Of a stretch of 64,000 bases of DNA, positions 5,368-39,361 are shown piece after piece. Origin of the DNA: Gammaproteobacteria bacterium (lineage in GTDB: Bacteria > Pseudomonadota > Gammaproteobacteria > GCA-001735895). The first letter of the stretch is position 1; each line of letters starts with the position of its first letter. The stretch covers positions 62,001 through 126,000 of the forward strand of contig JAOTYD010000002.1 in assembly GCA_029862005.1 (NCBI GenBank), given 5' to 3'. The position numbers were made by a program, and so were the translations under genes. The notes below the pieces were generated by a model. That model saw only the letters and a program-made list of their open reading frames with translations. It was not told the origin of the DNA and did not search any database.

Positions 5368-6597
5368 TTATGGCTTTGTTTTCAGATCGAAGCCTTCGTG
5401 CAGGGCGCGCACGCCAAGCTCGAGGTATTTTTCATCCACAACCACCGAAATTTTAATTTCGGAGGTTGAAATCATCAGAATATTGATACCTTCATTCGCC
5501 AGAATCTCGAACATCTGGCTCGCAATTCCCGCGTGCGAGCGCATGCCGACACCGACGATCGAGATCTTGACGATCCTGTTGTTTCCGGAAACCTCCCGGG
5601 CTTTCATTCGCTTCGCCGTCTCTTCGAGTGATTCCAGTGCAGTATCGAAATCATCCCGATGAACCGTAAAAGTAAAGTCGGTCGTACCATCTGCACCGAC
5701 GTTTTGAACGATCATGTCGACTTCGATATTGGCATCGGAGATCGGGCCGAGTATCTGGTAAGCAACGCCAGGCGTATCGGATACACCGTTAATGGTTAAC
5801 TGGGCTTCGTCGCGATTAAACGCGATGCCCGATATCAAAGCTTGTTCCATAGTTTTATCCGTACCATATTCTGTGGTTATCAAGGTGCCATCGCCCGCTC
5901 CGAATGACGAGAGCACGCGCAACGGTACCTGGTATTTTTGTGCGAATTCGACCGCTCGAATTTGCAGCACTTTCGAACCGAGGCTCGCCATTTCCAGCAT
6001 TTCTTCAAAGGTGATGGTGTCCAGTCGGCGTGCTTGTGGCACCACCCGCGGGTCAGTCGTGTAAACACCATCAACGTCGGTGAAGACCTGGCATTCGTCG
6101 GCTTTCAGTGCAGCGGCCAGTGCCACGCCGGTCGTGTCCGAGCCACCGCGTCCCAGCGTTGTTATGTTGTTGTGTTCGTCGATCCCCTGGAATCCGGCAA
6201 CCACGACAATACGTCCTTGTTTGAGGTCATCGGTCATTTTGACATTATCAATCGATTTTATGCGGGCCTTGTTGTGCGCACTATCGGTCATGATCCTGGC
6301 CTGGCCACCGGTGTACGAGCGCGCCGGGTAACCTCGTTTTTCCAATGCCATTGCCAGCAGCGCTATCGTGACCTGTTCACCGGTCGTCAGCAGCACATCG
6401 AGTTCGCGTCCGCGCGCCTGCGGATCGACCTGCCGGGCAAGTTCTACCAGCCGATTGGTCTCTCCACCCATCGCCGAAACCACGACCACCATGTCATTAC
6501 CCGCGTCACGGTACGAGATCACCTTGTCGGCGACGGCCTTGATGCGCTCTATCGAGCCTACCGAAGTACCGCCAAATTTTTGCACCAGTAGTGACAT
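5368..6597 (-). CDS. lysC: Aspartate kinase
   Basis: A 409-residue aspartokinase that phosphorylates L-aspartate, the first step towards lysine, threonine, methionine and diaminopimelate. The N-terminal kinase domain begins with the signature VQKFGGTSVG and contains the TTLGRGGSDTT nucleotide and aspartate motif. Residues ~265-409 form two ACT domains for feedback control. The length and the monofunctional layout match the alpha/beta type LysC of Pseudomonas and relatives rather than the ThrA fusion. It lies between alaS and csrA, as expected, except that a TauE/SafE gene on the other strand separates it from alaS. No lysine riboswitch is visible in the short upstream region. Confidence 0.96.
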   Translation of the reverse strand: MSLLVQKFGGTSVGSIERIKAVADKVISYRDAGNDMVVVVSAMGGETNRLVELARQVDPQARGRELDVLLTTGEQVTIALLAMALEKRGYPARSYTGGQARIMTDSAHNKARIKSIDNVKMTDDLKQGRIVVVAGFQGIDEHNNITTLGRGGSDTTGVALAAALKADECQVFTDVDGVYTTDPRVVPQARRLDTITFEEMLEMASLGSKVLQIRAVEFAQKYQVPLRVLSSFGAGDGTLITTEYGTDKTMEQALISGIAFNRDEAQLTINGVSDTPGVAYQILGPISDANIEVDMIVQNVGADGTTDFTFTVHRDDFDTALESLEETAKRMKAREVSGNNRIVKISIVGVGMRSHAGIASQMFEILANEGINILMISTSEIKISVVVDEKYLELGVRALHEGFDLKTKP

Positions 6598-6737
6598 TGT
6601 CTTTCGACTGGACTCGCCGGGTTGAAAAAAAGACCGCGGATTATAGGAAATATGGATACATTTGTATAACGATATTCGTCATCGCGCGCGATCACTAATA
6701 GAATTCAACCTCTACCATTACCCTGTAATATCCACCT

Positions 6738-7523
6738 ATGTTTTCATTGCTCCAGTTTGATTGGCCCGTATTACTAGCCATCACCGCCGCATTGCTTTTC
6801 GCAGGGCTGATCCACGGTACCCTGGGACTTGGCTTTCCAATGGTAGCAACGCCGATTCTTGCCACGATGATGGACGTGCGCAGTGCAATACTGATCACCT
6901 TGCTACCGACCATGGCAGTCAACATCGCCAGTATTTTCAATAGCAAATCCTCCCTGAAAAACACGCGACAGTTTTGGCCGCTGGTTTTCTTTACCTTTAT
7001 CGGATCACTCGCCGGCACCGTCGTTCTGGCAGCCCTCGATCCCGCTCCGTTTCGCATCGTGCTGGCGGCATTAATCCTGTTATACCTGTGGAATAACCTG
7101 CGCATTCCAAAACCATGGCTCATCGACAACGCCATGCTGGCGATGGCGATTTTTGGATTGATTGCTGGTCTGGCGGCGGGTACCACCAATGTCATGGTCG
7201 CCGTTTTAATTGTTTACTTCCTCTCGCTGGAAACTCCCCGTTCGACCATGGTGCCTGCACTGAACTCATGCTTCCTGGTTGGCAAGGCTTCACAGATCGT
7301 CGTGCTTGCAGTCGCGGGGCTCGTCGGTTTCAGGTTAATGCTTGAAACGGCGCCGCTGGCAGTCGCTGCTGTCATTGCACTGCAGCTAGGACAACGTTTG
7401 CGGTCACGCATCGATGTCGGTACTTACCAGGCCATTCTGCGTAAATTGTTGCTGATCCTGGCGATTGTATTGATTTACCAGTTTTTGTCTGAAACAAACC
7501 TTGTCCCGGGATTATCCGGTTAA
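6738..7523 (+). CDS. TauE/SafE family sulfite exporter-like permease
   Basis: A 261-residue integral membrane protein with about eight hydrophobic segments and the internal duplication typical of TauE/SafE (PF01925): an early GLIHGTLGLGFPMVATP motif and a mid-protein GLIAGLAAGTTNVMVAVL motif. Characterised members export sulfite or organosulfonates, but the family is broad and the substrate here is not proven. It sits alone on the plus strand between lysC and alaS, 5 nt from the alaS stop, breaking an otherwise conserved cluster. Its presence 4.6 kb from the molybdenum enzyme at 12960 is suggestive of sulfur metabolism but is not evidence of a shared pathway. Confidence 0.88.
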   Translation: MFSLLQFDWPVLLAITAALLFAGLIHGTLGLGFPMVATPILATMMDVRSAILITLLPTMAVNIASIFNSKSSLKNTRQFWPLVFFTFIGSLAGTVVLAALDPAPFRIVLAALILLYLWNNLRIPKPWLIDNAMLAMAIFGLIAGLAAGTTNVMVAVLIVYFLSLETPRSTMVPALNSCFLVGKASQIVVLAVAGLVGFRLMLETAPLAVAAVIALQLGQRLRSRIDVGTYQAILRKLLLILAIVLIYQFLSETNLVPGLSG

Positions 7524-7528
7524 CAGGG

Positions 7529-10132
7529 CTAGAGTTTGCTTTCAATCCAGGGCAATACCGATTCGAGTGCCGCGGGAAGATTTTCAGGCTGATTGCCCCC
7601 GGCCTGGGCCATGTCCGGCCGGCCGCCGCCACGGCCACCACATTGCTCGGCCACCATATTGGCCAGATCACCGGCGCTGATACGTTTCGATTCAGCCTTG
7701 GTCACGCCCGCGATGATCGACACTTTATCGTCTTCGCTACTGGCGAGCACTACCGCTGCAGCACCCAGCTTGTTTTTAAGTTGATCAACCGTGTCGCGCA
7801 GCGTTTTAATGTTGGCACCATCGAGTTTGACGGCAAGTACTTTAACGCCCTTGATCTCTTGCGCCTGAGATGCCAGGTCACCCCCTGTCTGCGAAGCCAA
7901 TTTTGACTTAAGGGCCTCGAGCTGTTTTTCCAGCGACCGGTTATTCGCCTGTAACTGCTCGATTCGAGGCAACAGCTCGTCCCGGCTCGCCTTTAATGTG
8001 TGCGCTGCGGTATCTAGTTTATCTTCACTGTCAATGAAGCGCCTGACCGCGGCTTCACCGGTTACTGCCTCGATACGACGTATGCCGGAGGCAATACCGG
8101 TTTCGAGTATGATCTTGAACAATCCAATATCGCCGGCACGTGGTACGTGGGTACCGCCACAAAGCTCGATCGAATCGGATCCGATTTTCAGCACGCGCAC
8201 CACGTCGCCATATTTTTCGCCGAACAGCGCGATGGCACCGGATTTTTTTGCGGCTTCCATATCCATGGACTCGGCCCTGGTTTCCAGGTTGCCACGTATT
8301 TCATTGTTGACAATGGTTTCTATCGCGACAATCTGCTCATGCTCGACAGGTTGATAGTGCGAAAAATCAAAGCGCAGCTTATCGGCATCAACCAGTGAAC
8401 CTTTCTGCTGAACATGTTCTCCGAGGACTTTTCTTAACGCCGCATGCATCAAGTGCGTCGCCGAATGATTGAGCATGACGGCGCGCCGATGATTTTCATC
8501 GATTTGCGCCTTGACCCTGTTACCTACACTCAACTCACCGGTTATCAGTGAGCCAATATGAAGGTAAACATCGTTTTGTTTCTGCGTATCGCTAACCTTG
8601 AACTCGGTATTTTTACCCAGGCTCAGACTGCCGATATCGCCGACCTGGCCGCCGGACTCGGCGTAAAATGGCGTCTGCTTCAGAATGACAACTGCCTGGT
8701 CTCCGTTTTCGAGTTGATCGATGGCTTCATCATTTTGCAGAATAGCAACGATACTGGAGCTAGCTGTCGATTTATCATAACCGAGAAATTTTGTCGCTGG
8801 ATAGGTATCGAGCTTAAATTGCTTGCCGATTGCGCTGAATTGACTCGAGGCGCGCGCGCGTTCGCGTTGTGCTTTCATCTCGACATCGAAACCAGCCTGG
8901 TCAATGCCGAAACCTTCCTCGCGCGCCACGTCGGCGGTTAAATCGACCGGAAAGCCGTAGGTATCGTAAAGCTTGAAAACTGTTTTACCGTCAATCGTGT
9001 CGCCCTTCATTTTGCCGATCGCATCCCCAAGAATTCGCATGCCCTGCTCCAGGGTTTCGGCAAAGCGTTCTTCCTCTTTTTGCAGCACGCGTTCGACATG
9101 CCCACGGTTTTGGCTAAGCTCCGGATAAGCGTCTCCCATTGCGCTATCGAGAGTCTCCACCAATTTATAGAAGAAAGGCTTCTTGCAACCAAGCTGGTGG
9201 CCATGTCGCGCCGCACGACGAATGATTCGTCGCAGCACGTAGCCGCGTCCTTCGTTGGAGGGCAAGACGCCATCGACAACCAGGAACGCGCAGGAACGAA
9301 TATGGTCTGCGATAACGCGCAAGGATTTGTTCTCCAGGTCCCTGGTGCCGGTCAATTTGGCAGCGGCTTTTATTAAAGACTGGAACAGGTCAATATCATA
9401 ATTATTGTGCACCTGCTGCATGATTGCCGCGAGGCGTTCGAGCCCCATCCCGGTATCAACCGACGGTCGCGGCAGCGGCTCCATATTGCCGTGTTGGTCC
9501 CGGTTATATTGCATGAAAACCAGGTTCCAGATTTCGATGTATCGATCACCATCTTCCTCGGGCGTACCCGGTGGCCCACCCTCGATTTCGGGTCCGTGGT
9601 CGTAGAAAATCTCGCTGCAGGGACCGCAGGGACCAGTATCACCCATAGACCAGAAATTATCTGAAGTACCGATGCGAGTGAATCTTTCAGGGTCCACTTT
9701 GATATCCTCAAGCCATATTGTTGCGGCCTCGTCATCATCGGCATAAACGGTAACCCAGAGTTTTTCCGCGGGTAAGCCGATAACATTGGTCAGGAAATCC
9801 CAGGCGTAGTGGATCGCATCCTTTTTAAAATATTCACCGAAACTAAAGTTACCCAGCATTTCAAAAAAGGTGTGGTGTCGGGCAGTGTAGCCAACGTTTT
9901 CAAGATCGTTGTGTTTGCCGCCCGCACGCACACAACGCTGCGAGGTCGTGGCACGGGTGTAATTTCGTTTTTCACTGCCGAGGAATACATCCTTGAATTG
10001 CACCATGCCTGAATTGGTAAACAACAGCGTCGGATCGTTGCCCGGCACCAATGGGCCTGATGGCACGATGGTGTGTCCGTGCGCTTCGAAATACTTGAGA
10101 AACTTGTCTCTTAATTCGGCACTGGTTGTCAT
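7529..10132 (-). CDS. alaS: Alanyl-tRNA synthetase
   Basis: An 867-residue class II synthetase charging tRNA-Ala. The catalytic domain has [17 protein letters not shown] near residue 85-100. The editing domain carries the zinc-binding ELCGGTHV motif near residue 655, and the C-Ala/DHHA1 region ends with [15 protein letters not shown]. Length equals the usual bacterial protein. The start ATG at 10132 matches the family start [16 protein letters not shown]. It lies downstream of recX in the recA-recX-alaS order typical of gammaproteobacteria; a small hairpin in the 55-nt gap may reduce read-through. The gene ends 5 nt from the end of the convergent TauE/SafE gene with no clear terminator. Confidence 0.98.
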
Positions 10133-12173: not shown

Positions 12174-12956
12174 GTGGAAAACACTAACCGCCCCGATATT
12201 TCCGCTCGCAGTATCGTGATACTGGCCGCGCTCGTAACCGTTGTGGCGGCGCTCACGCTGCTGTGGTCCGGTGCGCCCACCCCGGGATCTCCGCTGGCGC
12301 AGCTGTGCGGCGCGCTGGGCGCACTGCTGTTACTGGCACCACTCGCTTTTGTTATCATGAAGCGTTCCGGATTTGCCAACAACCCGCCCGCCTGGTTTAT
12401 CGGTCACATCCTCGCCACGTCACTCGGAAGCTGCCTGATTTTCATCCATGTCGCCGCGGGCAACTGGTTGACGCCACCCGGGCTTATCCTGTTGCTGATG
12501 GCGTTTCTCGTCCTGCAGGGGAGTTTACTGCGGGCCTTCTTCTCACGTGGGTTCAGCCTGCTGTTTGCCCGCAGCAGTGTCGCCTCGGGATTCAGTGCGC
12601 CCGTTAACCTCGATAAAACCGCGTTGCAGAATATCATCGACACCAAGATCCGGTTGCTGGAAAGCATCGATCCCGCTGCCGACGAAGCACTGTTCTCACC
12701 CGCCCTGAAGCACTGGTTGCGTAAACCGTGGAAAAGCACCAGGTACCTGGTGCTGGCCGAGCGCGAGGCCCGCATGGTGGGCACACGCGCCAGCGCCGGG
12801 ATAGGGCTCAGCTGGTCGCGGCGCATTCACATGCTGGCAGCGCTCGGTTTTTACCTCGGCCTGATCTCGCACATCGTCGTGGTCCTGTTTTTTGCCGGGT
12901 ATGCTGCCGAAGGTGGACCCATCGACTGGTGGTATATCACCGACTGGGGCGGTTAA
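12174..12956 (+). CDS. Five-helix membrane subunit, probable di-haem cytochrome b
   Basis: A 260-residue membrane protein with hydrophobic segments at about 13-31, 41-62, 74-95, 98-115 and 218-243, and a soluble, charged loop of ~100 residues between the last two. Two helices each carry a histidine pair at exactly H-x13-H (H78/H92 and H219/H233). That is the spacing used to bind two b-haems across a membrane in cytochrome b, so a role as quinone-reactive electron carrier is inferred. The five-helix layout recalls NarI-type subunits rather than NrfD or DmsC, but I see no clear family signature. The start is a GTG at 12174 (GGAAT just upstream). It is first in a tight operon, 3 nt before the molybdenum enzyme gene. 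Confidence 0.8.
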   Translation: MENTNRPDISARSIVILAALVTVVAALTLLWSGAPTPGSPLAQLCGALGALLLLAPLAFVIMKRSGFANNPPAWFIGHILATSLGSCLIFIHVAAGNWLTPPGLILLLMAFLVLQGSLLRAFFSRGFSLLFARSSVASGFSAPVNLDKTALQNIIDTKIRLLESIDPAADEALFSPALKHWLRKPWKSTRYLVLAEREARMVGTRASAGIGLSWSRRIHMLAALGFYLGLISHIVVVLFFAGYAAEGGPIDWWYITDWGG

Positions 12957-12959
12957 CCG

Positions 12960-15911
12960 ATGACCGACGTTTCAACCCAGTTAGCGCTGATGATCGATCT
13001 CGAACGCTGCACCGGCTGCAAGAGCTGCGAAGCTGCCTGCAAGCAAACCAATGCGCTCGGTCCCAACAGTTATCGTAACCGGGTGATGTGGTTTGATGAA
13101 CAGCACAGCGATAGCGCTCAAACATCCCAGGCCAGGCTGGATTTTCTGACCGTCACCTGTCAGCAGTGCGAACGTCCGGCCTGCCTGCGCGCCTGCCCGG
13201 TCTACCCGAAGGCAATCTCCAAGGATCCGGTCACGGGTGTGGTCGCGATTGACGAAAACCGCTGCACCGGTTGCGGCGAGTGCGCATTGTCCTGCCCTTA
13301 CGGTGCGATTGGCTATAATGCCGAGCAACACCATGCGGTAAAGTGTGATCTATGCGCCGAACGCAGAGATCAGGAACTGGGACCTGCCTGCGCCTTCGTA
13401 TGCCCAACGCGCGCCATCAGTTTCGGCACGCGCGCAGCGCTGCTTATCAGTGTACAGCAAGAACAACGAGAGATTCTCGATACCGACCACTTCCTGCAAC
13501 AACCGGCAACGATTTATCTCAAACGCCTGGTTGACGGGGCGCAGAGCGATGCCGACGCAAATGAACAAAGCACCCCGGCCCTGATGCATGACCATCAAAG
13601 CCGGGCAAGTCTGCAGACTCAGGTCGCACGGGGCTCGTATCGCCGTTCGCAGAAAAACCTGCTGCTGCAACAGGAGGAGCGCATTGTCCCGGGAGGCTGC
13701 AACATCTGTTTCAACGGCTGTCCGGTAAAGTATCACCTGCGCGGTAACGAGGTGCTCAATATCTACGGCAACGAAGAAGACCCGGTATTCCAGGGTCGCG
13801 TTTGCCCAAAATCGCAGATGTCGCTGCAGCTTTACAATAATCCCCACCGGCTGGTGACGCCGCTGAAACGTGTCGGCGTGCGCGGCAGCGATTCGTTTCG
13901 GCCGATCAGCTGGGACCAGGCCCTGAGCGAGATTGCGCACAAACTATCCGCGGTACGCGATCAGTACGGGAGCGATGCGCTCGCGATCCAGTCGGGTTCA
14001 CGCACCGGCGTGCTCAATATAATCGGCGCGCTGCCACTATTCGCCGGGCTCTGGGGTACCGCAAACGTGGCCGCTACCGAGCCCTATTGCGACCTGGGCA
14101 AGGGACTCGCGCTGAGCCTGACGCAGGGCACCGGCGTCATGGCAAGCGTTTATACCGAGCAAGATATCGGCAGCGCCGAGGCCTATGTTTACATCGGCGA
14201 CAACCAGGCCGAAACCCGTCCGGTAAACTTCGGCATGCTAAACGACTGGCGCATAAAGCATCGTGCGAAAATGATTGTCGTCGATCCCCGTCTGACCCCG
14301 ACCGCCAGCAAGGCCGATGCCTGGTTACCGATTCGCTCGGGGACCGATATGGCGCTTGGCCTCGGCATCATCCATTACCTGTTCGAGCACGATCTCCACG
14401 ACCAGGCATTCTGCGAACGCTGGATCGTCGGCTGGCACGAGTGGCGTGATTACGTAAAAGATAAATATTATGACCTTGAATGGGCGGCTCAGGTTACCGA
14501 CCTCGAAGTCGGCCAGCTCGAAATGCTGGCCCGCACCATCGCACAAGCCGACGGCTGCATGATTTTCCTGAGTCGTGGCGTTAACCAGCATACCAATTCG
14601 GCACAGACCAACCGCGTCTTCATGTTCCTCGCGGCAATGACCGGCAATTGGGGGCGTCGTGGCGGTGGTTATTTCAATGTATCCTCCGAAATGAACTGGC
14701 AGCCACCACAGATTCCCGCTCACCGCAAGGCCGATGTGCGCGCAGCGATAAGCAAGAATCCCTCCGCCTGGATGGAGGCGATGCTCAACGGCACGCCCTA
14801 CCCGATCAAGGCGCTGATCACGAGTAATAATCCACTGGCGCAATGGCCGAATCAAAATCGTGCCCGCCAGTCGATACAGGCACTCGACCTGGTGGTGCAC
14901 CTCGAATTGTTCAAGAATGCGACTTCGCGTTTCGCCGACTACGTGTTACCGATGGCAAGCGGAATCGAAAAAGGCGGCACGACGCGATTTGCCGAGGATC
15001 GACGCATTGTCTGGAACGACAAGTTTATCGACCCGCCCGGCGAGGCCCGCTCCGATCACTGGTTCTGGATCGAACTGGGTAAGAAATTCGGCTTCGATGA
15101 TGTATTAAAAGATGACTACAAAGATCCCCGTAAACTCTGGGACGAAGTACTCGTAACTGCCACCGCGGACCTTGCTGCCGCAACCACCGCGGAGCTGACC
15201 AGCCGACCCAATCGGACGGTACGATTACCCCGCTTCGAGGGCGGGCCGGGTGAGATCGATCCGGTTTACGTGACCGAGGCGATGCGCCGCGATCCAGGGG
15301 CAAATCTGAGTTACCCGACCACGAGCGGTAAGCTTGAATTCTGGACCCCTCAGCTGGAACAGAAATTTTCGGCCATGGGACTATCAGCTTTACCCGAGTT
15401 CTACACCGAGGCCGAACAGCTGGTCAGCCTGCCGCACATAAAATACGATACGACTGCAAAAGTTTCGAGTTTTTTCAGCGAGGAGACCCTGGTATATCCA
15501 GGTCATATCGTTGACGAGCCTGTCACCCATGACGCAGCCTTTGATACCGAGCTCGTAACCGGGCGTCCGGCCGCACCCCACTTTCACTCCTGGACACATT
15601 ATTACTGGCAGGCCCAGGAAATGTGGCCCGAGCTGTACTGCCAGATCCACCCCCATAAGGCCGCAACGCTGGATATTAGGGACGGGGACCCGGTTTCAGT
15701 GATCACCGAGAACGGCAAGATTACCCTGCGAGCCTGGATCCATCGTGGGATCCGCCCCAACTGTATTTTCATCCCGATCGGCTGGGATGAGCAACAACCC
15801 TATCACCCCGGCGCGAGCGTCAACCACTTAACCGGGATCCGGCTTGATCCGGTTTCACAGCAGGCCAACCTGAAAACCCACCTGTGCCGGGTGGAAAAGG
15901 CAACGCACTAA
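12960..15911 (+). CDS. Fused ferredoxin-molybdopterin oxidoreductase
   Basis: A 983-residue single-chain fusion of two normally separate subunits. Residues 1-150 are a DmsB/PhsB-type ferredoxin with 16 cysteines in four groups (C17/20/23/27, C67/70/75/79, C102/105/108/112, C129/132/144/148), enough for four [4Fe-4S] clusters. After a linker of ~95 residues, residues 245-983 form a DMSO-reductase-family catalytic unit with its own [4Fe-4S] site (C247, C250, C254, C282). It has a probable molybdenum-ligand cysteine (C377 in EPYCDLGKG) and a C-terminal molydopterin-binding barrel. There is no Tat or Sec signal, so it should face the cytoplasm. The closest functional analogies are Soe sulfite dehydrogenase and Psr/Phs enzymes; the substrate is not known. 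Confidence 0.88.
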   Translation: MTDVSTQLALMIDLERCTGCKSCEAACKQTNALGPNSYRNRVMWFDEQHSDSAQTSQARLDFLTVTCQQCERPACLRACPVYPKAISKDPVTGVVAIDENRCTGCGECALSCPYGAIGYNAEQHHAVKCDLCAERRDQELGPACAFVCPTRAISFGTRAALLISVQQEQREILDTDHFLQQPATIYLKRLVDGAQSDADANEQSTPALMHDHQSRASLQTQVARGSYRRSQKNLLLQQEERIVPGGCNICFNGCPVKYHLRGNEVLNIYGNEEDPVFQGRVCPKSQMSLQLYNNPHRLVTPLKRVGVRGSDSFRPISWDQALSEIAHKLSAVRDQYGSDALAIQSGSRTGVLNIIGALPLFAGLWGTANVAATEPYCDLGKGLALSLTQGTGVMASVYTEQDIGSAEAYVYIGDNQAETRPVNFGMLNDWRIKHRAKMIVVDPRLTPTASKADAWLPIRSGTDMALGLGIIHYLFEHDLHDQAFCERWIVGWHEWRDYVKDKYYDLEWAAQVTDLEVGQLEMLARTIAQADGCMIFLSRGVNQHTNSAQTNRVFMFLAAMTGNWGRRGGGYFNVSSEMNWQPPQIPAHRKADVRAAISKNPSAWMEAMLNGTPYPIKALITSNNPLAQWPNQNRARQSIQALDLVVHLELFKNATSRFADYVLPMASGIEKGGTTRFAEDRRIVWNDKFIDPPGEARSDHWFWIELGKKFGFDDVLKDDYKDPRKLWDEVLVTATADLAAATTAELTSRPNRTVRLPRFEGGPGEIDPVYVTEAMRRDPGANLSYPTTSGKLEFWTPQLEQKFSAMGLSALPEFYTEAEQLVSLPHIKYDTTAKVSSFFSEETLVYPGHIVDEPVTHDAAFDTELVTGRPAAPHFHSWTHYYWQAQEMWPELYCQIHPHKAATLDIRDGDPVSVITENGKITLRAWIHRGIRPNCIFIPIGWDEQQPYHPGASVNHLTGIRLDPVSQQANLKTHLCRVEKATH

Positions 15912-15915
15912 TTCC

Positions 15916-17103
15916 ATGGATTCGACACATCTCGATATATCGTCACAGTTCCTGCTGGCCCTGGGCGGAATCTTTCTGGTCGGCCTGCTGTTGTCAACCG
16001 TCGCGCAAAGGTCGTTTCTACCTCGCGCCACCCTGCTGCTGCTGTTTGGCGCGATTATCGGCGAAGATCTTCTGGACCTGGTTCCCGGGCTGCTGGTAGA
16101 CCGCTTCGGTCTCATCGCCGAAATGACCCTGCTGATGGTGGGTTTCCTGTTAGGAGGGAAACTAACCCGCTCCGCGTTAAAAGGCCACACCGGTATCTCG
16201 TTCTCGATTTCAATCTGTGCCGCGCTTTTACCGGCGCTCGTGGTCTGCCTGGGTATGATCGCGATGGGCGTGGCCATCGAGATCGCGATGCTGCTTGGCT
16301 GTTTCGCCGCGGCCACGGCACCAGCGGCCGTCCTCGACGTGGTGCAGGAATCAGGTGTAAAAAACAGGTTCAGCGAATTGCTATTGTTGATCGTTGTACT
16401 CGACGATGTCTGGGCACTATTACTGTTCGGTGTCGGTATGGCTGTTGTAACCTCTTTAAATGGTGTTGCCGGCGAGTCCACTTTCATCGGGCTCGTGACC
16501 TGGGAACTGGGTGGGGCTGTACTGGTGGGTATCGCAGTCGGTCTGCCTGCTGCTTACCTGACCGGTCGCATCAAGGATGGCAGACCGATGCTGGTCGAGG
16601 CACTGGGTATTGTTTTCCTGTGCGGCGGCATCGCCCTGTGGTTGAACGTTTCTTTCCTGATCGCGGCAATCGTTATGGGCGCAGTAATCGCCAACCTGGC
16701 TCGTCATCACGAATATCCGTTTCATGCAATTGAAGATATCGAATCGTTGTTCATGATTATTTTTTTCGTGCTCGCCGGGGCATCACTCGAACTCGGTGCG
16801 CTTGCCGTGCTCGGGCTCACCGGCGGGGTTTATATTCTATGCCGTACAATGGGCAAGTACCTGGGCGCCTGGATCGGCGGCTACCTGGGCAAATCAGGGC
16901 AGGATCATCAGTTGTGGATGGGCGTTGCACTACTGCCCCAGGCCGGTGTTGCAATCGGCATGGCGCTGGTGGCATCGAATCAATTCCCCGAGTATCGACA
17001 GATCATGCTGCCGGTCGTGATCGCATCAACGGTAGTGTTCGAGGTTATCGGCCCGGTGTTCACACGCCTCGCCATCCGGCACTCGGTCGAGGATAGCCGC
17101 TGA
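15916..17103 (+). CDS. Cation:proton antiporter (CPA family)
   Basis: A 395-residue integral membrane protein with 11-13 hydrophobic segments, matching the Na/H exchanger domain (PF00999). It has an early LLLFGAIIGEDLLDL helix, a mid-protein GCFAAATAPAAVLDVVQESG segment that corresponds to the ATDP/ion-site region, and a VVLDDVWALLLFG helix with the paired acidic residues typical of electrogenic members. No cytoplasmic TrkA-N domain follows. It begins 4 nt after the molybdenum enzyme stop and closes the operon. Its presence suggests that the operon's activity disturbs, or is driven by, the ion gradient. The transported cation (Na+, K+) is not determined. Confidence 0.87.
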   Translation: MDSTHLDISSQFLLALGGIFLVGLLLSTVAQRSFLPRATLLLLFGAIIGEDLLDLVPGLLVDRFGLIAEMTLLMVGFLLGGKLTRSALKGHTGISFSISICAALLPALVVCLGMIAMGVAIEIAMLLGCFAAATAPAAVLDVVQESGVKNRFSELLLLIVVLDDVWALLLFGVGMAVVTSLNGVAGESTFIGLVTWELGGAVLVGIAVGLPAAYLTGRIKDGRPMLVEALGIVFLCGGIALWLNVSFLIAAIVMGAVIANLARHHEYPFHAIEDIESLFMIIFFVLAGASLELGALAVLGLTGGVYILCRTMGKYLGAWIGGYLGKSGQDHQLWMGVALLPQAGVAIGMALVASNQFPEYRQIMLPVVIASTVVFEVIGPVFTRLAIRHSVEDSR

Positions 17104-39166: not shown

Positions 39167-39361
39167 GGCAACCGCAGAAGCCCCTCGCAACTGGCTGGGT
39201 GGCCTACGGCTTCCCGAAAACGCATCGAATTTAAACGGCAAGGCGAGACTCGACATCCGTGTCTCGACTCGCCACAGGCCGCATCCATGCGGCCTGACCC
39301 TTTAAATTCGATGCGTTTTCGGCACCCAGCCTTTACGTTGCGAGGGGCTTCTGCGGTTGCC
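39167..39361. repeat. Long nested palindromic element R1 (nadE-lipA intergenic)
   Basis: The 454-nt gap between convergent nadE and lipA holds R1, R2 and little else. R1 has a perfect 25-bp outer inverted repeat (39167-39191 with 39337-39361), an 8-bp middle repeat (39194-39201 with 39323-39330) and a perfect 22-bp inner repeat (39214-39235 with 39301-39322). Between the inner arms sit two further hairpins (39242-39273 and 39276-39295), whose loops read, on the minus strand, CATGGATG and CACGGATG. The folded RNA would be a long stem capped by a two-leaf clover. No ORF, transposase or target-site duplication is visible. Confidence 0.85.

Follow-up and report, generated by a model that had tools for sequence, protein, structure and literature searches.

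A candidate cytoplasm-facing molybdenum/tungsten oxidoreductase that pairs a fused ferredoxin-molybdopterin chain with a predicted di-haem b membrane protein

Two adjacent genes were analysed in a 64,000-nt stretch of DNA (the window) from a gammaproteobacterial genome, contig JAOTYD010000002.1, positions 62,001-126,000 of the forward strand; coordinates follow window numbering. The first gene encodes a 260-residue membrane protein and the second a 983-residue chain in which a ferredoxin domain precedes a molybdopterin-type catalytic domain. Judged from their sequences, the two products probably form a two-subunit, cytoplasm-facing, membrane-bound oxidoreductase carrying molybdenum or tungsten bis-pyranopterin guanine dinucleotide (Mo/W-bisPGD), a judgement on how the enzyme is built and on its route from Mo to the haems that does not extend to sulfite as the substrate. 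The fused chain looks like a previously undescribed subfamily of the MopB (DMSO reductase) superfamily, outside the named families sampled, and the membrane protein looks like a candidate bis-histidine di-haem b protein of an unnamed family.

Pfam searches placed four domains on the 983-residue chain, all above cut-off: Fer4_11 (60-158), Molybdop_Fe4S4 (242-294), Molybdopterin (297-708) and Molydop_binding (865-973). The ferredoxin cysteines stand at residues 17, 20, 23, 27, 67, 70, 75, 79, 102, 105, 108, 112, 129, 132, 144 and 148; this domain scores 115 bits against TIGR02951, and its best matches are YnfG and DmsB, at 38-39% identity. An original prediction, made from the window alone, had named these 16 cysteines, a catalytic [4Fe-4S] site between C247 and C282 and the probable Mo ligand C377. 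All were found at those positions, and all 21 cysteines (16 + 4 + C377) are invariant across 22 full-length orthologues with identities down to 62%. In alignment, C377 matches the cysteine ligand of PsrA, PhsA, NapA and SoeA as well as Sec140 of FdhF. Membership of the MopB superfamily is indicated by three domains that score above curated cut-offs together with this cysteine ligand. Neither a twin-arginine translocation (Tat) nor a Sec signal was found on the fusion, which begins directly with the ferredoxin domain.

The catalytic domain was placed in a maximum likelihood tree with a small reference set, in which the SoeA, ArxA and TtrA rows took their names from gene context, not experiment (SoeA from synteny with DmsB/DmsC-type genes), and from which ActB and ArrA were absent. 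The fusion clade was sister, with support 100/99, to uncharacterised MopB proteins from Nostoc sp. C052 and Streptomyces sp. NBC_01708, outside the Psr/Phs/Soe/Ttr/Arx and formate dehydrogenase (FDH)/Nap/Nas groups; the single TtrA-like and ArxA-like rows fell outside the fusion clade. After the Nostoc/Streptomyces family, the domain lies next closest to the FDH/Nap/Nas side and further from Soe/Psr/Phs/Ttr/Arx. Approximately unbiased (AU) tests rejected a clade with SoeA (p 3.35e-06), an FDH grouping (p 1e-51) and a Phs/Psr clade (p 0.00056), in agreement with the earlier claim of a distinct enzyme. The PhsA model gave 261 bits against the 694 needed, leaving the fusion outside Psr/Phs, and the ArrA model gave 109 against 1600 bits. 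The sister proteins share ~32% identity with the fusion but differ in carrying a Tat signal (SRRGF), in their length of ~840 residues and in lacking both a ferredoxin domain and an adjacent membrane partner. The DmsB-like ferredoxin module occupies the N-terminus of the catalytic chain where the sister family bears its Tat signal, an arrangement that suggests that a periplasmic Tat-type ancestor could turn cytoplasmic by exchanging its signal peptide for a ferredoxin module. The sister genes lie at 5806-8331 of the Streptomyces locus (L090) and 5830-8346 of the Nostoc locus (L091), the former within an arsenic resistance cluster (ArsR, ACR3, ArsO, ArsC).

Three known assignments of the fusion were weighed against these results. 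A formate dehydrogenase of new layout might be proposed from the top NCBIfam score, Fdh-alpha at 311 bits, but the cut-off for that model is 666 bits (no NCBIfam model reached its cut-off on the fusion) and the FDH hallmarks are absent, as the residue after the Mo ligand is Asp or Ser instead of His and the Arg position (VRGQ) is Ser (NVSS); together with the AU result, this makes a formate dehydrogenase very improbable. Slightly more improbable still is a SoeABC-type sulfite dehydrogenase by descent whose subunits have been rearranged. A cytoplasm-facing enzyme in sulfur-oxidising hosts, with the fusion in 10 of the 11 dsr-positive, SoeA-minus genomes of the genus, would suit such an origin, but the AU test rejects the SoeA clade (p 3e-6) and the membrane part is not NrfD/DmsC-like. 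Homology to SoeABC is thus refuted under the model used, while an analogous function is counted within the reading preferred here; the differing catalytic clade, the five transmembrane helices, the fused Fe-S part and the want of an NrfD/DmsC-type subunit set the pair apart from SoeABC. That the fusion only transfers electrons without catalysis, like ActB of alternative complex III, likewise a MopB and Fe-S fusion (PMC6303296, PMC10100899), is hardly to be expected either, because its Mo-ligand Cys, proximal cluster and dinucleotide-binding domain have all been conserved and its domains come in the reverse order, which separates it from ActB.

Five transmembrane helices were predicted in the membrane subunit both by hydropathy and by AlphaFold2, which placed helices at residues 11-30, 40-65, 71-92, 101-134 and 206-244 with a predicted local distance difference test (pLDDT) score of 74.7. 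A first model, made from close orthologues only, had a pLDDT of 68, and its structural matches were discarded as meaningless; the score rose to 74.7 when three distant relatives were added, and the plasmid copy described below was left out of the modelling input. The protein holds exactly two H-x13-H pairs, as had been predicted, and at least two pairs occurred in 35 of 20,000 shuffles of its own sequence. One more histidine, the fifth, lies at position 180 (H180) of the cytoplasmic loop; it is invariant among orthologues but not in distant relatives. A profile search located such relatives in a different family within the class (G306) and also in other parts of the phylum (G404, G501). An hhalign comparison with them gave a probability of 92.8 and an E of 4e-7 with H78 and H92 aligned, and a joint alignment with three of them (21-24% identity) had 11 invariant columns, four of which are H78, H92, H219 and H233. 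Four conserved histidines on two helices at the spacing of two haems are what a bis-His di-haem b protein would be expected to show, so that conservation and spacing agree with the two bis-His sites originally proposed.

Lysine and arginine occur at the N-terminus and in both loop 2 and loop 4 (96 residues), and are nearly absent from loops 1 and 3 and from the C-terminus. Because of this positive-charge bias, the predicted topology puts the N-terminus, loop 2 and the large loop 4 in the cytoplasm and the C-terminus outside, and H78 and H219 would then lie near the cytoplasmic face and H92 and H233 near the periplasmic face, at matching depths. Positive-inside topology and the missing export signal bear out the cytoplasmic orientation claimed earlier. 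No Pfam match was obtained for the membrane subunit, and no NrfD/DmsC-type match in Pfam or NCBIfam; a comparison with the NarI/FdnI/Ni_hydr_CYTB group gave a Ni_hydr_CYTB match in one of 23 members, with a best E of 5.5, leaving the subunit outside that family, and DUF4405 matched weakly in four of 23 (best E 0.003). With the second model, VIA-align listed cytochrome b561 (Z 8.6 and 8.5), cytochrome b6 (8.2) and SpNOX (7.9) at the top, with STEAP1 (Z 7.3), bc1 cytochrome b (Z 7.3) and NOX5 (Z 7.0) further down; these matches to haem-b proteins are suggestive only, the best having a root mean square deviation of 4.2 over 132 residues and unrelated helical bundles scoring 7-8 in the same list. 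The membrane subunit shares with NOX, STEAP, cytochrome b561 and cytochrome b6 the histidine pairs ~13 residues apart on helices, but differs in its want of a Pfam match, its five transmembrane helices, its 96-residue cytoplasmic loop and its partner, a Mo enzyme and not a flavin domain. In the G306 genome (L064, 4246-6974), a distant homologue with both H-x13-H pairs stands with an Fe-S/FAD thioredoxin-reductase-like protein and a cytochrome c-type protein, and, in other parts of the phylum, 192-residue homologues in L087 (6998-8316) and L088 (161-1476) adjoin multihaem cytochrome c genes, that of L088 with 8 CxxCH motifs.

The stop codon of the membrane gene is separated from the ATG of the fusion gene by a gap of 3 bases. 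At ~0.05-0.07 (fusion) and ~0.12-0.20 (membrane gene), the dN/dS ratios indicate purifying selection on both, and the gene pair is therefore neither a chance arrangement nor an assembly artefact; the 983-residue chain is intact in ~20 metagenome-assembled genomes (MAGs) and on the finished plasmid of one isolate. Among 31 genomes of the genus, 25 have both the fusion and the membrane gene and the other six have neither, in keeping with the partnership first proposed. The two genes are adjacent and co-directed in every locus that reaches both, and the pairing is obligate. The fusion was found in none of 10 other genomes of the order, and a sample of ~370 genomes of the class and ~400 of the phylum contained no orthologue outside the genus. 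The pair also occurs together in a Thiotrichaceae MAG (L004) and, in an unrelated, alphaproteobacterial context, on plasmid pRR4-35_5 of the cultured roseobacter Pseudohalocynthiibacter aestuariivivens.

In the mechanism that we propose, and for which we infer the cofactors, the direction and the use of quinone, electrons would be exchanged between the substrate at Mo (C377) and the proximal [4Fe-4S] cluster (C247-C282), and between that cluster and the four [4Fe-4S] clusters of the ferredoxin domain, five clusters in total. The ferredoxin domain may dock on the cytoplasmic face of the membrane subunit at loop 122-217, from which the path would continue to the cytoplasmic-side (n-side) haem b (H78/H219), the periplasmic-side (p-side) haem b (H92/H233) and finally quinone or possibly a periplasmic acceptor.

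Several known systems resemble parts of this architecture. Like SoeABC, the pair would combine a cytoplasm-facing Mo subunit, a four-cluster ferredoxin protein and a membrane quinone partner in sulfur oxidisers, but SoeABC has a gene for each of the three, its SoeC is NrfD/DmsC-like and haem-free, and SoeA belongs to another clade. PhsABC and FdnGHI also join a Mo catalytic part and an Fe-S part to a di-haem b membrane part, as is predicted for the pair; they differ in having separate, Tat-exported subunits and another membrane cytochrome family, and their catalytic clades are rejected by the AU tests. ActB unites a MopB domain and an Fe-S domain in one chain. It has the MopB domain followed by a C-terminal Fe-S domain, is without Mo/W-bisPGD, has NrfD-type membrane partners and is related to ArxA/ArrA (PMC10100899), a described MopB and Fe-S fusion that is catalytically empty (PMC6303296, PMC10100899). 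In the fusion the order is reversed, with the Fe-S domain first, and ActB lacks the Mo cofactor. The statement of the original prediction that known enzymes keep these parts as separate subunits therefore has to yield to the one-chain precedent of ActB, though ActB is catalytically empty with its Fe-S part C-terminal. ActB was the sole MopB/Fe-S fusion found in the open-access literature, and no described fusion with the Fe-S part first was found there. The pair would thus add a catalytic MopB lineage in which the electron-transfer subunit is built into the catalytic chain, with an unnamed di-haem membrane family as its predicted partner.

The genus genomes were examined for sulfur metabolism. 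SoxB was found in 28/31, DsrA in 26/31, SoeA in 18/31 and AprA in most; the window genome has soxB, dsrA and aprA and lacks soeA. Since its hosts oxidise sulfur by the Sox/reverse-Dsr route, the enzyme most probably runs oxidatively, on a substrate in the cytoplasm. DsrA was present in 23 of 25 genomes with the fusion versus three of six without it (Fisher p 0.038, uncorrected for multiple tests and relatedness), the fusion occurs in 10 of the 11 dsr-positive genomes that have no SoeA, and the plasmid copy of the pair lies near a PF03601 putative sulfate exporter. No substrate hint was found in the gene neighbourhood of the pair across the 28 loci compared. Our single best guess at the substrate is sulfite, with the enzyme as an alternative to SoeABC, a tentative choice that is more likely wrong than right. 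Such a role could explain sulfite oxidation in dsr-positive genomes without SoeABC. More speculative again is the full reading that the pair is a cytoplasmic dehydrogenase of a new class, acting on a sulfur oxyanion (probably sulfite), whose one Fe-S/Mo chain passes electrons to a ferric-reductase-like di-haem protein and on to quinone or across the membrane. It would replace SoeABC in reverse-Dsr sulfur oxidisers and would have evolved separately from every named MopB respiratory enzyme. The case for sulfite is weak because SoeA and the fusion occur together in 15 genomes, because G769, which is dsr-positive, has neither of them nor AprA, and because AprA offers another route in many genomes. 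Also weighing against the preferred reading of the pair are the position of the pair beside recA/cinA and not inside a sox or dsr cluster, the placement of the catalytic domain outside the SoeA clade, and, for the membrane subunit, the lack of any Foldseek hit in the PDB at E<=0.001, the second model's matches having E >0.1, while Z values of 7-9 fall in the chance range for helical bundles. Across the genus genomes, SoeA and the fusion did not show the complementary distribution that was sought (Fisher p 0.68), and AprA was not associated with the fusion (p 1.0). A published survey reported SoeABC from every dsr-positive sulfur oxidiser that it covered (PMC6397845), and 11 dsrA-positive genus genomes without SoeA depart from that published rule.

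The terminal acceptor and the direction of flow each admit another explanation. The membrane subunit might conduct electrons through the membrane and deliver them to a periplasmic acceptor, a multihaem c or other cytochrome, in the manner of ferric-reductase-type di-haem proteins and not to quinone. Distant relatives with the same four histidines adjoin cytochrome c-family genes (L088, L087 and L064), SpNOX, NOX5 and STEAP1 are among the structural matches (identity to the NOX proteins 17-18%), and the second haem would sit on the p-side; no multihaem cytochrome c was seen, however, among the conserved neighbours in the genus loci, where some unclustered neighbours are unannotated, and we consider this route unlikely, although well short of negligible. 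A reductase, in which electrons from quinol would flow through the haems to the clusters and reduce an oxidised compound in the cytoplasm, is doubtful to a similar degree. Electron carriers can work in either direction, many relatives in the DMSO-reductase group are reductases and the ferredoxin domain is nearest DmsB/YnfG, but the catalytic domain is distant from DmsA, respiratory reductases of this kind are mostly periplasmic (PMC10100899, and established knowledge) and the hosts are sulfur oxidisers.

The features of the pair are collected in Table 1. The pair has recA/recX/alaS on one side; on the other are a Na+/H+ exchanger gene, cinA-type and PPK2-type genes and mutS. The Na+/H+ exchanger-family gene was found in 13/28 compared loci, and it may be a co-transcribed operon mate of the fusion and not an essential part.

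Table 1 Predicted features of the gene pair and its downstream neighbour in the window
Feature	Position	Strand	Details
Membrane subunit open reading frame, 260 aa	12174..12956	+	GTG start; candidate di-haem b, five predicted transmembrane helices
H78-x13-H92, transmembrane helix 3	codons 12405-12407, 12447-12449	+	Invariant in 24 orthologues and distant relatives
H219-x13-H233, transmembrane helix 5	codons 12828-12830, 12870-12872	+	Invariant in 24 orthologues and distant relatives
Single-chain catalytic subunit open reading frame, 983 aa	12960..15911	+	ATG start; ferredoxin domain and predicted Mo/W-bisPGD catalytic domain; Pfam
Ferredoxin domain, residues 1-157, DmsB type	12960..13430	+	PF13247; 16 Cys, four predicted [4Fe-4S] sites
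Catalytic-domain [4Fe-4S] site, C247, C250, C254, C282	13698..13805	+	PF04879; alignment with PsrA, PhsA, FdhF, NapA
C377, probable Mo/W ligand in motif TEP[YF]C	14088..14090	+	Alignment; invariant
Molybdopterin dinucleotide-binding domain, residues 865-973	15552..15878	+	PF01568, 84 bits
Na+/H+ exchanger-family gene	15916..17103	+	PF00999; 4 bases downstream of fusion

Two further observations were made. The Pseudohalocynthiibacter plasmid carries a second MopB enzyme without an Fe4S4 domain (L016, 17542-19743), near Rieske, desaturase-like and betaine-transport genes, a region that may degrade a methylated or sulfonated osmolyte. Elsewhere in the window, a TwoAYGGAY cis-regulatory RNA candidate lies at 39207-39329 on the minus strand (Rfam RF01731, 47.7 bits).

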